From NCBI RefSeq assembly GCF_021401245.1, contig NZ_JACBFY010000003.1:496001-560000 (forward strand): 64,000 nt of DNA. Direction: 5' to 3'. How positions within the stretch are numbered: the first letter of the stretch is position 1; every line of letters begins with the position of its first letter. This document shows positions 14,282 to 57,311 of the stretch, piece after piece. Position numbers and translations under genes: made by a program. This stretch comes from Pseudacidovorax sp. NFM-22 (GTDB lineage Bacteria > Pseudomonadota > Gammaproteobacteria > Burkholderiales > Burkholderiaceae_C). Below the pieces are notes generated by a model. It did not search any database. It was not told where the DNA came from and worked only from the letters and a program-made list of their open reading frames with translations.

Positions 14282-16208
14282 TGGCCGCCGCCGCGTCTTC
14301 CTCCCAGGCCTGGCCGCCGCAGCATCCGCCGCTGGCCGCGCCGTTCCTGGTGCGCAGCCGGGCCGACATCGAGCGGCTGGCCGCTACGCCGCTGGCCGAG
14401 GCGCTGCCCGCGCAGAGCACCTACGAGCTGATCCGCAACGCTGCGCTGGCCTTCGGCGACAAGACGGCCCTGACCTTCCTGCGCGACGGCAACCCCGACA
14501 CGCCGCCGCTGCGCTGGACCTACGCCGAGCTGCTGGCCCGCATGCACCAGACGGCCAATGCGCTGCATGCATTGGGATTGGGCGCGACGGACACCGTGGC
14601 GGCGCTGCTGCCGGGCTGCCTCGAATACCACCTGGCCCACTGGGGCGGCCAGGCGGCCTGCATCGTGCAGCCGCTCAACCCGCTGCTGACCGAGGACAAG
14701 CTGGCGGCGCTGCTGGCGGCCACCGGCGCCAAGGCGCTGATCGCCTACGGCGCGCCGGAAGATGCCGACTACTGGGCCAAGGCCTGCGCCTGCAGGCGCG
14801 CGTGCCCGGCCTGCGGCATGTGCTGCGCGTGGCGCCGCATGACGAGTCGCCCGCGGATGCGCCGGCGTTGCCGACCGGTGCACTGCACTTCCACGAAGCG
14901 CTGGCGGCGCAGCCCGGCGACCGCCTGCTGAGCGGCCGCGTGATCGCCGCCGAGGACGTGGCGGCCTGCTTCCACACCGGCGGCACCACGGGCGCACCCA
15001 AGCTCGCCCTGCATACGCACGGCAACCAGGTCTTCACCGCCTGGGCCAGCGTGGTCACGCAGGGCACGAACAGCGCGGACGTGGGCATCGCCGGCTTCCC
15101 GCTCTTCCATGTGGCCGGCGTGCTGCCCGGCGCGCTGGCCTCGCTGTCGGCCGGCGCCGAGATCGTGATCCCCACCACGCTGCTGATGCGCAACCGCGAG
15201 GTGGTCCGCAACTACTGGAAGCTGGTGGAGCGCTATCGGCCCACCGTGCTGGCCGCGGTGCCCACCATGCTGGCGGCGCTGGCCAATGTGCCGCTGGAAG
15301 GCGCGGACATCTCCTCCATCACCTACTGCCGCACCGGCGCGGCGCCACTGCCGGCGGAACTGGGCGCGCGCTTCGAGCGGCTGTTCGGCCTGCATGTGCA
15401 CGAGAGCTTCGGCATGACCGAGATGGCTGGCATCAGCAGCGTCACGCCGCGCGGCGTGCATGCGCCCGCCGGCTGCGTGGGCTTCGTGCCGCCGCATGCG
15501 CAGGTGCGCATCGTGGCCCTCGACGCGCAGGGCGGCGCCAGCGCGCGCGAGGTGGCGCCAGGCGAGACGGGCATGGTGCTGTTCAAGTCGCCCAACGTCT
15601 TTCCGGGCTACCTGGACCCGCGCGACACCGCCAAGGCCTTCACGCCCGATGGCTGGCTGGCCACGGGCGACCTGGGCCGGCTGGACGCGCAGGGCCTGCT
15701 GCACCTGGCCGGCCGCGCCAAGGACCTGATCATCCGCGGCGGCCACAACATCGACCCCGGCATGCTCGAAGACGCCCTGGGCGCGCATCCCGCCGTGCAG
15801 ACCTGCGCGGCCGTGGGCGCGCCCGACGCCTATGCCGGCGAACTGCCGGTGCTCTTTGCCACGCTGCGGCCGGGCGCGGAGGCCACGGAGGCCGAGCTGC
15901 TGGCCTTCGCCAGTGCCCGCGTCGACGAGCCGCCGGCGCGGCCGAAGTGGGTGGCGGTGCTGCCGGCATTGCCCACCACCAACGTCGGCAAGATCTACAA
16001 GCCCGAGCTGCGGCAGATGGCCGCGGTGGCGGTGGTTCGGCAGATCGTGGCGGGGCAGGGCGAAGGCGCGGGCAGCGTGCGCATCGAGCCCGAGGGCGCC
16101 GCCGACGTGGCCGTGCACCTCGGCGCCGGCTGGACCGACGACGCGCGTGCAGCGTTGCAGGCCGCCCTGGACCCTCTGCCCGTGAAGGTGCACCTGCGGG
16201 ACGGCTGA
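14281..16208 (+). pseudogene. AMP-forming acyl-CoA ligase, interrupted by a frameshift
   Basis: An acyl-CoA synthetase of about 642 residues if repaired. It would use ATP to activate a carboxylic acid as its CoA thioester. The first 167 codons run in frame from the ATG at 14281 (overlapping the previous stop). Near 14783-14786 the homology moves to another frame: YWAKA is followed in the new frame by LRLQARVPGLRHV. The original frame stops at 14931. One missing C (GGCCTG where GGCCCTG is expected) explains it. Beyond the break all motifs are intact: HTGGTTGAPKLALHTHGN, SFGMTEMAG, LATGDLG, and the C-terminal VGKIYKPEL lysine. Either a sequencing error or a recent inactivation. Confidence 0.85.
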
Positions 16209-24612: not shown

Positions 24613-24697
<85 letters not shown>

Positions 24698-24778: not shown

Positions 24779-24871
24779 CTGACTGCCAAAAAATCTTTGC
24801 TGATCCATTCCGACTGGTGTCCCGCGGGGAGGCTGGACGTCTGCGGAGCAGCAATGGCTCTCACAAATAAG

Positions 24872-24898
24872 AAAGCCGCCGGGGTTGCCGGCGGCTTT
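24872..24898 (-). terminator. Intrinsic terminator of tRNA-Leu copy B
   Basis: An 11-bp stem (AAAGCCGCCGG / CCGGCGGCTTT) with a five-base loop lies just after the 3' end of copy B, with a T-rich TTTCTTATTT tail on the minus strand. It makes copy B a separate transcription unit. Confidence 0.85.
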
Positions 24899-24902
24899 GT
24901 GT

Positions 24903-24987
<85 letters not shown>

Positions 24988-50057: not shown

Positions 50058-50065
<8 letters not shown>
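48881..50065 (+). CDS. carA: Carbamoyl-phosphate synthase small subunit
   Basis: Glutamine amidotransferase subunit that supplies ammonia to CarB for carbamoyl phosphate, feeding arginine and pyrimidine synthesis. 394 residues. The N-terminal domain starts [17 protein letters not shown] and contains [18 protein letters not shown]. The class I amidotransferase domain has catalytic Cys279 in [12 protein letters not shown] and the His/Glu pair in [14 protein letters not shown] at 48881 is chosen because GGAG lies six bases upstream. Its end overlaps the carB start by eight bases. Confidence 0.97.
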
Positions 50066-53285
<3,220 letters not shown>

Positions 53286-54485: not shown

Positions 54486-54537
54486 CCACCGCCTTTTCCT
54501 GGGGTCGGCTGCCTTGATCATCGAATGGAGCAACCCC

Positions 54538-55264
54538 ATGGCAGACACCTACGTTCTCGTGCATGGCGCCTGGCACACTGGCGCCGAGATGGAAGCGACT
54601 GCGCGATTCCTTCGTGAGCGCGGCCACGTCGTCCACTGTCCCACGTTGGCCGGCAATCGTCCGGGCGACGACCGATCCGTCATCGGCCTGGCCGATGCCG
54701 TCGACTCCCTGGCGGCCTTCATCGAGCAGCAGGATCTGAAGGACGTCCGGCTGGTGGGCCACAGCTACGGCGGCATGGTCATCAGCCACATGCCGCACCG
54801 GCTTCCGGGGCGCATCCGCCGCCTCGTCTACTGGAACGCCTTCGTCCCGCTGGATGGGCAATGCCTCAACGACATGGTGCCGCCACACTACCGAGAGCTC
54901 TTCGACGGCGTGGCGGCGGCCAATGGTCAGGCGGTGATGCTGCCTTTTCCGATCTGGCGCGAATCCTTCATCAACGACGCCGATGAGGCCATGGCGCGCA
55001 GCACCTATGCGCTGCTCAATCCGCACCCCTACCGCACGTTCACCGAACCGGCCGTCCTGCCGCAGCCGCTGGCTGCACTGGAGGTGGGCAAGAGCTACGT
55101 CAATGCCCAGCAGGACACCGCGCTGCCGCACAGCCTGCCTTGGCATCCGTCTGTCCGAGCGGCTGGGGCTGTTCCGGCTGGTGGAGTGCGCGGGCAGCCA
55201 TGAGCTGTGCTTTTCAAACCCGTCGCTGCTGGGCGCGAAGATCGAGGAGGCAGGCCGCGACTGA
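54538..55264 (+). pseudogene. Alpha/beta hydrolase, frameshifted before its catalytic histidine
   Basis: An esterase-like protein of about 241 residues if repaired. The N-terminal frame from ATG 54538 (GGAG eight bases upstream) gives VLVHGAWHTGAEMEATA and the nucleophile Ser76 in LVGHSYGGMVISH. At about 55144-55150 the coherent frame changes: LPHSLPWH is followed in the next frame by RLSERLGLFRLVECAGSHEL and then CFSNPSLLGAKIEEAGRD, ending at 55264. The likely catalytic histidine is in GSHEL, so the unshifted product ending at 55203 would be inactive. One extra base, or a two-base loss in a CG run, would explain it. Confidence 0.82.
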
Positions 55265-55298
55265 TGTCACAGGAGCGCCTGCCTCGTCCGTGCGGGTT

Positions 55299-55375
55299 TT
55301 GACCCGGCCGCAACAGCCGGCATAATCGAATGACCGACACCGCCCGGCTCCGGCCCGGCGGTGTCGTTCTTTTTT
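55299..55375 (+). promoter_or_regulatory. GraL-like promoter-terminator leader of greA
   Basis: A strong promoter, TTGACC (55299-55304), 16-bp spacer, CATAAT (55321-55326), is followed almost at once by an intrinsic terminator: ten-bp stem CGACACCGCC / GGCGGTGTCG (55335-55344, 55357-55366), then TTCTTTTTT. Transcripts starting near 55333 would mostly end after about 40 bases, leaving greA, 102 bp further on, to read-through. This is the arrangement of the GraL leader described ahead of E. coli greA. Confidence 0.7.
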
Positions 55376-55476
55376 GCCGCCGGCCCATGCCGCTGTGCGC
55401 GTCGCGCATCGGTGGGGCAGCCCCTCCTTGGGATGGGCCGCCCGGGCTTCTTTGACAGACCAGAACGACGACGGAC

Positions 55477-55953
55477 ATGGCCACCATTCCCATCACCAAG
55501 CGTGGCGCAGAAAAGCTGCGCGAAGAACTCCATCGCCTGAAGACGGTGGAGCGTCCCTCCGTGATCAACGCCATCGCCGAGGCGCGCGCTCAGGGCGACC
55601 TGAGCGAGAACGCCGACTACGACGCCGCCAAGGACCGCCAGGGCTTCATCGAAGGCCGTATCCAGGAGATCGAAGGCAAGCTGTCGGCCGCGCAGGTCAT
55701 CGACCCTTCCGAGATCGACGGCGGCGGCAAGGTCGTCTTCGGCGCGACGGTCGAGCTGGAGGAAGAGTCCACCGGCGACACCGTCAAGTACCAGATCGTC
55801 GGCGAGGACGAGGCCGACCTGAAGCAGGGCCTGATCAACATTTCCAGCCCCATCGCCCGTGCCCTGATCGGCAAGGAAGAAGGCGACGTGGCCGAGGTGC
55901 AGGCGCCTGGTGGCGTCAAGCGCTACGAGATCGTCGGCGTCAGCTACGCCTGA
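55477..55953 (+). CDS. greA: Transcription elongation factor GreA
   Basis: Rescues backtracked RNA polymerase by stimulating cleavage of the nascent transcript. 158 residues, the usual length. The N-terminal coiled coil begins [17 protein letters not shown] and its tip carries the acidic pair in [20 protein letters not shown]. The C-terminal FKBP-like domain contains [20 protein letters not shown] and [15 protein letters not shown] regulated leader lies upstream. DUF4149 gene follows after four bases. Confidence 0.97.
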
Positions 55954-55957
55954 GCAC

Positions 55958-56362
55958 ATGGCCTGGAAACCGCGGGTGGCCTTGATGGCCGCCGGGCTCT
56001 GGTGGGGCAGTCTCACGGCCATCGGCTTCGTCGCTGTGCCGCTGCTGTTCATGCACCTGCCCACGCCCGCGCTCGCCGGGGCGACCGCGGCCAAGCTGTT
56101 CTCCGCCCAGACCTGGATCACCGTGGGCTGCGTGCTCCTCATGCTGGTGGCGATGGGCCGCCGGGACGAGGGCGAGCCGGAGACGCCCCCGGGCGCGGTG
56201 ATGCTGATGCTCGGCGGCTTGTTGCTGGCCCTGCTGGTGGAGTACGCCGTCGCGCCGCGGATCGTCGCGCGCGAGAACCTTCGCCTGTGGCACGGCGTGG
56301 GAACGGCCATGTACGCGGCGCAATGGCTGTGTGCGGGTGCAACCCTGTGGCGTAGAGCCTAG
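55958..56362 (+). CDS. DUF4149-domain membrane protein
   Basis: A 134-residue protein with four hydrophobic segments (about residues 6-24, 43-58, 76-94 and 112-130) and short loops. The first segment includes LMAAGLWWGSLTAIGFVAVP, characteristic of DUF4149, a small inner-membrane family of unknown function. Genes of this type commonly sit next to greA in Burkholderiales. Starts four bases after the greA stop, so is probably co-transcribed. Confidence 0.8.
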   Translation: MAWKPRVALMAAGLWWGSLTAIGFVAVPLLFMHLPTPALAGATAAKLFSAQTWITVGCVLLMLVAMGRRDEGEPETPPGAVMLMLGGLLLALLVEYAVAPRIVARENLRLWHGVGTAMYAAQWLCAGATLWRRA

Positions 56363-56417
56363 CGAAGGCGCGTCCCGCCACTTGGTGGCACCATGGCCGG
56401 TCATAACAACATCAAGA

Positions 56418-57311
56418 ATGACCATGGACTCCCAGATCATCGAGATCACTGCCTCGTCCGTGGGGCAGTTGCAAGAAAACCCGGCATGGACCGCCGCGCT
56501 CGAGTCCGGCAAGGTGCTGTACTTTCCGCACCTCGGCTTTGGCCTGAGCGCTGAGGAGCAGGCGCTGCTGCGCCCCGAGATGCGCGATCCGAAGTCGCGC
56601 AACATCAGCCTCGATGCCGACGGCCGACTCAAAGGCCTGGCGGGCGAGGGCGCCGTCCAGGCCGCCGTCACCGACTGGATGGGCCGGTTCCGGGCGCAGT
56701 CGCAGGAGTTGATCGCGCGGCTGCTGCCTGGGTACCAGCACAAGCTGCGGCTGGCTCCCACGAGCCTGCGCCCTTCGGAGGTGGAGAGCCGCGAGCAATC
56801 CTGGCGCGCCGACGACCGCCGGCTGCATGTGGATGCCTTCCCCTCGCGGCCCAACCGGGGCGAGCGCATCCTGCGCGTGTTCACCAACATCCACCCCTCG
56901 GGCGGCGAGCGCGTCTGGCGCGTGGGCGAGCCCTTCGAGACCGTCGCCCGCACCTTCCTGCCGCGCGCCAAGCCCTATGCGCTCTGGCAGGCCAAGGCGC
57001 TGGCGGCGCTGCATGTGACCAAGTCGCTGCGCAGCGAGTACGACCACCTCATGCTCCAGTTGCACGACGGTATGAAGCGAGACCTGGACTACCAGCGCAA
57101 CTCGCCGCAGCAGACCGTCCACTTCCCGGCAGGCTCGACCTGGGTCTGCTTCTCGGATCAGACCTCGCATGCCGCGATGTCGGGCCAGTACATGATGGAG
57201 CAGACCCTGTTCCTGCGCGCCGGCGGCGAGTACGACCATGCGGCAAGCCCGCTGGGCATCCTCACGCGCCTCACAGGGCGGTCGTTGGTCGGTGCAGACG
57301 CGGCGGGCTGA
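56418..57311 (+). CDS. kdoO: Kdo hydroxylase (3-deoxy-D-manno-oct-2-ulosonic acid 3-hydroxylase)
   Basis: Fe(II)/2-oxoglutarate-type dioxygenase of 297 residues that converts the outer Kdo of lipopolysaccharide inner core to Ko. The family features are VLYFPHLGF near residue 34, RNISLDADGRLKG, and WRADDRRLHVDAFPSRPNRG, in which His137 and Asp139 should bind iron, with distal His251 in SDQTSHAAMSGQ. No signal or membrane segment. A neighbouring glycosyltransferase gene, convergent, suggests a small LPS-core modification locus. Start ATG 56418 or 56424. Confidence 0.88.
   Translation: MTMDSQIIEITASSVGQLQENPAWTAALESGKVLYFPHLGFGLSAEEQALLRPEMRDPKSRNISLDADGRLKGLAGEGAVQAAVTDWMGRFRAQSQELIARLLPGYQHKLRLAPTSLRPSEVESREQSWRADDRRLHVDAFPSRPNRGERILRVFTNIHPSGGERVWRVGEPFETVARTFLPRAKPYALWQAKALAALHVTKSLRSEYDHLMLQLHDGMKRDLDYQRNSPQQTVHFPAGSTWVCFSDQTSHAAMSGQYMMEQTLFLRAGGEYDHAASPLGILTRLTGRSLVGADAAG

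Follow-up and report, generated by a model that had tools for sequence, protein, structure and literature searches.

In the window, that is, the whole stretch of 64,000 nucleotides that was analysed, the transcription elongation factor gene greA is preceded by a sigma-70-like promoter and, directly behind it, by a terminator-like hairpin with a T tract. This arrangement is conserved among relatives, goes with greA and is absent where carB abuts greA. We consider it to be an attenuated leader of greA, with a probability of roughly three in four, at which the promoter is predicted to be active and transcription would partly terminate and partly read through into the gene. The outcome is a greA leader that can be aligned among relatives and that Rfam did not recognise: searches of the whole window and of 12 greA-leader loci gave no gathering-score match at greA, the best sub-threshold match reaching 15.2 bits compared with a cut-off of 42.5.

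Anatomy of the leader in the window

The features of the leader are as follows.

55299..55304, + strand: -35 hexamer TTGACC, 5/6 matches at spacing 16
55319..55326, + strand: -10 box with the conserved GG, GGCATAAT, the hexamer CATAAT being 55321-55326
55333 (55332-55334 possible), + strand: predicted transcription start, the 7th base after the -10 box, from spacing
55335..55366, + strand: terminator hairpin with a perfect 10-bp stem and a 12-base loop, from the fold, covariation in relatives and model R1
55367..55375, + strand: T tract TTCTTTTTT, from sequence; release predicted at about +38 to +43
55376..55476, + strand: rest of the greA 5' UTR, 101 bases, from sequence
55477..55953, + strand: greA, transcription elongation factor, ATG at 55477, from NCBIfam and Pfam

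The promoter TTGACC-16-CATAAT (55299-55326) has 10 of 12 matches and is the sole promoter-like site between 54000 and 57000, where shuffled sequences gave a mean of 0.1. The hairpin begins after a distance of 8 bases from the -10 box; its arms CGACACCGCC (55335-55344) and GGCGGTGTCG (55357-55366) are paired with each other, and the loop contains an inner 3-bp stem. The fold of 55330-55378 has -29.6 kcal/mol (z -5.98), and none of 200 shuffles was equally low. Hence, the preliminary description was right in placing a 10-bp terminator with a T-tract within about ten bases of a good sigma-70 promoter. It had also given 102 bp from the T tract to greA; the spacer exists, its length being 101 bases. 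No -10 candidate (at least 4/6 matches with A2 and T6) was found in this stretch. The identity of GreA is given by NCBIfam NF001264 (4.4e-74), with which Pfam concurs.

The program-made terminator scan did not contain the greA hairpin because it allowed loops of 3-8 bases only. A fold-based hairpin scan of our own, validated on GraL of E. coli, was used instead. An ATG at 55330 was considered as a leaderless or leader-peptide start and was dropped, since relatives inspected by eye do not retain it. Upstream of the leader the window holds carB (50058-53285), an AraC-type regulator and an alpha/beta-hydrolase ORF. As a separate observation, this ORF (54514-55264) shows a frame change near its C-terminal end, which represents a real lesion or a sequencing error; the ORF is continuous in L002-L005 and L058.

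The pair of promoter and hairpin before greA is not a product of chance. A single definition of terminator-like hairpins was applied to both strands of 464 kb of the own genome, made up of the window and a further 400 kb of the contig. Among the 60 strong hairpins (dG <= -16, at least 6 T of 10), a single one had a -10 box of at least 5/6 matches in the 45 bases before it, and this is the greA leader. At dG <= -12, such a -10 box preceded 7 of 577 hairpins in the same 464 kb, and a 9-of-12 promoter with its -10 in these 45 bases was found before 3 of the 577, the greA leader being the best with 10/12. Another, weaker promoter (9/12, TACAAT) leading to a short hairpin and T tract was noticed in L238 (G000:C15), on the minus strand at about 15713-15762 of the reverse complement; the ORF behind it resembles, by eye, a Rieske-type oxygenase.

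Conservation of hairpin and -10 box among relatives

For the comparison, the region upstream of greA was taken from 221 loci. Of these, 15 belong to the genus (counting the own genome), 80 are named loci, which are the best 80 of at least 582 confirmed ones, 78 belong to the family, and 48 represent further families of the order. In the family sample 26 loci are best matches, and 52 more were hand-picked from listings; the order sample was drawn from 49 other families, one locus from each that gave a match, f26 giving none. One named locus, L075, was left out because it lies at a contig end, leaving 79. The resulting 172 family-level loci were reduced to 161 distinct genus- and family-level leaders by duplicate removal; some named loci share their species with genus or family loci, and close relatives are favoured by the sampling. 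Among the best 80 of at least 582 named loci, the greA locus nearest to that of the window is a MAG labelled uncultured Pseudacidovorax with a 100% identical GreA, the own record possibly being absent; this agrees with the betaproteobacterial origin proposed in the preliminary description.

Cut-offs of the hairpin scan were our own choice, with a loose (dG <= -7) and a stricter (dG <= -12) setting. At the loose setting, a hairpin with a T tail within 200 bases of greA was found in 15/15 genus, 73/79 named, 74/78 family and 25/48 order loci, a few of the hairpins counted lying inside carB. A -10 box preceded these hairpins in 15/15, 52/73, 54/74 and 9/25 cases, respectively. Absence of the pair from close relatives, which had been named beforehand as speaking against such a leader, does therefore not occur, as all 15 genus genomes carry both parts. 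At the stricter setting, 146 of the 161 distinct leaders have the hairpin with its T tail, compared with 475 of 3220 controls (20 dinucleotide shuffles of each 200-base greA upstream region), and hairpin plus 5-of-6 -10 box occur together in 110/161 leaders and in 10/3220 shuffles. Such a -10 box thus lies within 45 bases before 110 of the 146 hairpins and is missing before 36. The box GGCATAAT is present in 94/146 leaders with and 4/15 without the hairpin (Fisher p 0.01), a moderate association at these cut-offs.

The -10 box is CATAAT in 88 of 107 distinct leaders having both hairpin and -10. Each of the two Gs before CATAAT is found in 99% of these 88 leaders, and the Gs were not a selection criterion. 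The -35 element is weak in the family, 31/107 leaders having at least 4/6 matches at spacing 16-18 (7% when letter-shuffled). The distance from the predicted start to the 3' end of the hairpin is 34 bases in the window and 35 in the median of relatives (27-62), and the hairpin ends 16-116 bases (median 32) before their start codon. With the start placed by spacing, 2 bases of RNA precede the hairpin in the window and 8 in the median, 15 or more being present in 6/107 relatives. The T tract is broken (TTTGCTTTT) in many relatives, and termination may be weak there, judging from the sequence. In the order sample, which represents other families, 21/48 loci carry a hairpin at dG <= -12. Among 18 hairpin loci of this sample with a measured carB gap, the -10 box precedes the hairpin in 6; hence, the hairpin may act on carB read-through in these families instead.

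For an alignment, 66 of the 107 distinct leaders were retained after thinning by hand. They had been chosen for having hairpin and -10, so that conservation of the -10 box in the alignment is partly by construction, the GG excepted. The consensus reads GGCATAAT, about a dozen variable bases and ACACCGCCG.GCGGCAACGC.CGGCGGTTT.CTTTT, with TTT.CTTTT in the T tail. The outer stem is nearly invariant and the inner stem covaries: 43 cells have both sides changed, compared with a mean of 13.1 after shuffling, and none of 500 shuffles was as high. Pairing amounts to 93% and drops to 27-47% when the partners are slid against each other.

A covariance model, R1, was built from the 66 aligned leaders, which include the leader of L004, identical to that of the window. 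Its match in the window, at 55319-55370 with 46.1 bits, is the only one in the own genome that rises above noise, the next having 24.3 bits (E 0.55). At E <= 0.01, 30 of the 60 family genomes searched gave exactly one match each and the remaining 30 gave none. The match lies directly before greA in all 25 family genomes with a listed greA position, some of these leaders being in the model; as several leaders are, the telling part of the searches is the absence of a second copy. A weak second R1 match within the window (24867-24909) overlaps the end of one tRNA gene. Two tRNA genes stand close together here, at 24616-24697 and 24906-24987 on the minus strand, with identical Rfam scores.

Link to greA and competing explanations

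The hairpin belongs to greA. In most relatives carB is the upstream neighbour and the hairpin lies within the gap. It is also kept behind a hydrolase, a relative of the 56331-57311 ORF, a TonB receptor, TetR, SSF, URO-D, GH3 and transglutaminase-like genes, and in L132 the upstream ChaC gene points away from greA while TAGAAT, hairpin and T tract are all present before it. This persistence through changes of the upstream gene, including a divergent one, ties the hairpin to greA. All nine leaders with carB 40 or fewer bases from greA are without the hairpin, and none of the 124 leaders with hairpin and a measured carB gap falls into this range, all gaps being at least 73 bases. Five leaders have no hairpin at the cut-off despite carB being 74-198 bases away, three of them showing a hairpin of another type by eye; it is also absent in L228.

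By eye, a different type of greA leader was seen in L092, L057, L202, L228, L114, L118 and L128. It has GGCATAAT or a similar box, in some cases overlapping the carB stop codon, followed by a longer GGACAG...CTGTCC-like or GGGAGC...GCTCCC-like hairpin. Four of these loci (L057, L092, L202, L228) were scored as hairpin-less, yet they carry GGCATAAT and a hairpin recognised by eye, with the T run several bases later.

In an attenuated leader, RNA polymerase would start at about 55333 and encounter the intrinsic terminator before 45 bases have been transcribed. Many transcripts would then stop at a length of about 38-43 bases, the remainder continuing into greA. In most relatives greA would be reached by read-through of the hairpin, because a 5-of-6 -10 box between T tract and start codon is found in 4 of 146 family leaders and the stretch there has a median length of only 24 bases. 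The folds of 55333-55376 and 55285-55376 retain the hairpin and contain no alternative antiterminator structure, for which there is no room on the 5' side. Since almost no RNA precedes the hairpin, a 5'-side antiterminator is not possible in most leaders; the read-through fraction would consequently either be a fixed set-point or depend on RNA polymerase, on pausing and on factors such as GreA itself and the Nus factors.

Alternatively, the hairpin could be a plain terminator of the upstream gene, carB in general and the hydrolase in the window, with the -10-like GGCATAAT as an incidental or minor promoter. Such a role would suit the position of the hairpin in the gap behind an adjoining carB in most relatives, as well as the hairpins without -10 box in several other families. 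It is unlikely, however, given that the hairpin persists when the upstream gene is replaced or points away, that greA of E. coli keeps a hairpin despite its divergent neighbour, and that greA would be left without a visible promoter when -10 boxes behind the hairpin are so rare. The short stretch behind the hairpin in most relatives also speaks against a separate small RNA that is encoded ahead of greA with a terminator of its own, greA being driven from another promoter in the 101-base spacer. The short RNA would then be a complete transcription unit, and in this clade the spacer is long enough; but it is free of -10 candidates and the sole promoter-like site of the 3-kb region lies upstream of the hairpin, which makes this version the most improbable of all.

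Rather improbable, if somewhat less so than a separate small-RNA gene, is a function of the hairpin as 5' mRNA stabiliser or translation element instead of a terminator. Only a few bases separate the predicted 5' end from the hairpin, which in many cases ends just ahead of the start codon, as would be expected for such an element, whereas the T-rich tail after the stem, present in 146/161 leaders and in the consensus, and the strong T tract of the window, 101 bases away from the ATG, point to termination. An attenuated leader of greA therefore remains our preferred reading.

Relation to GraL and other terminated leaders

GraL is the greA leader of Escherichia coli, reportedly a subject of Potrykus 2010, and the preliminary description had seen a GraL-like layout with unrelated sequence in the window. 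This view was borne out. Applied to E. coli as a positive control, the same script placed the GraL hairpin 103 bases upstream of greA, with TAAAAT 23 bases in front of the hairpin and dacB divergent. Both leaders have, in the window by sequence, a sigma-70 promoter directly before an intrinsic terminator in the greA 5' UTR, both terminators lie about 100 bases before greA, and an upstream gene is not required. In contrast, no sequence relationship is detectable: blastn of the window leader against GraL gave only words of 8 and 9 bases, and R1 gave no match at the greA leader of E. coli, the sole weak one in L258 (E 0.92) lying elsewhere. Furthermore, greA usually stands behind carB in the Pseudacidovorax relatives, and one sigma-70-like promoter was found in the window leader compared with P1 and P2 in E. 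coli. P1 and P2 overlap, P2 being sigma-E dependent; no GAACTT-like site (5/6 matches) was found from 55201 to the greA start, which is a weak test. GraL is moreover terminated imprecisely, about one third of transcripts reading through, is part of a GreA-dependent autoregulation, and acts in trans (nudE).

In 40 genomes from other orders of the class (Gammaproteobacteria in GTDB), which were hand-picked from listings, 10 have a hairpin at dG <= -7, 5 at dG <= -12, and 3 have hairpin plus -10 box; carB abuts greA in these other-order genomes, judged by eye. The layout is real and conserved among the relatives, far above chance, and the principle of greA control suggested in the preliminary description would be limited to the lineage. 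Common inheritance with GraL was rejected because the leader is mostly absent in the other orders, and from the sequences the two look like convergent leaders of separate origin.

In the parts of Dylewski 2019 (PMC6829880) that are drawn on here, GraL RNAs have 37-47 and 49-59 bases, similar to the RNAs of about 40 bases predicted for the window leader. Catalytically active GreA represses its own gene via the GraL leader in E. coli, and the presence of GreA leads to more GraL in vivo, not in vitro. The full GreA response requires some 18 bases of RNA ahead of the hairpin (section 2.5), compared with 2 in the window; which GraL parts the mechanism needs is left as an open question in these parts of the paper. 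By analogy with E. coli, GreA might raise termination at the window leader and thereby limit its own synthesis, a feedback that we regard as possible with odds somewhat below even. If true, the E. coli circuit would have a counterpart with unrelated sequence and simpler anatomy, and what the mechanism needs, a promoter-proximal terminator, would be separable from the particulars of GraL such as the 18-base 5' part and the stem sequence.

Terminators in the 5' region of greA are reported for many species and read as attenuators in the parts of Naville and Gautheret 2010 (PMC2965389) used here, where greA leaders are named in a figure legend for Enterobacteria and bacilli and antiterminator structures are given. 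The greA-/rnk-leaders described there share with the present leader the conservation of a terminator upstream of greA across relatives, and differ in their antiterminators, for which there is no RNA in most leaders here. Closer in this respect is the rimP-leader of the same source, a conserved terminator, in its general form without antiterminator, before rimP-nusA-infB, for which a termination factor has been proposed as reader. Its operon likewise includes a gene for a transcription factor; the gene and the stem motif (GGGc...gCCC) are different. Among the literature matches listed, there was no greA leader study in Betaproteobacteria, and a text find for greA gave no mention in the main texts of PMC4603805, PMC5688073, PMC7011215, PMC10175445 and PMC7563307. 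As greA attenuation is already in print (PMC2965389, PMC6829880), the window leader is a new, apparently convergent case of a known kind.

A more far-reaching and rather doubtful possibility is that promoter and terminator alone form a GreA dose sensor in Burkholderiaceae, evolved independently of enterobacteria, in which the polymerase itself would read the GreA level within the first 40 bases; the expression of GreA and GreB alike would then require reading through a terminator. Regarding the second Gre gene, greB was considered as another conserved case in the family and dropped: a hairpin (dG <= -12) within 150 bases was found in 18/50 family loci, none of the 18 had a -10 box before it, and ARAGORN reports no tRNA in L303, one of the genus loci. 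The greB start codons were picked by script and some may be wrong. Within the genus, all 15 greB loci have an intrinsic terminator 21-67 bases ahead of the gene (L017-L031; own genome L020:1248-1410, G000:C18). This terminator belongs to tRNA-Arg(ACG) in the own genome, and a tRNA 3' end is visible by eye at the other genus greB loci.
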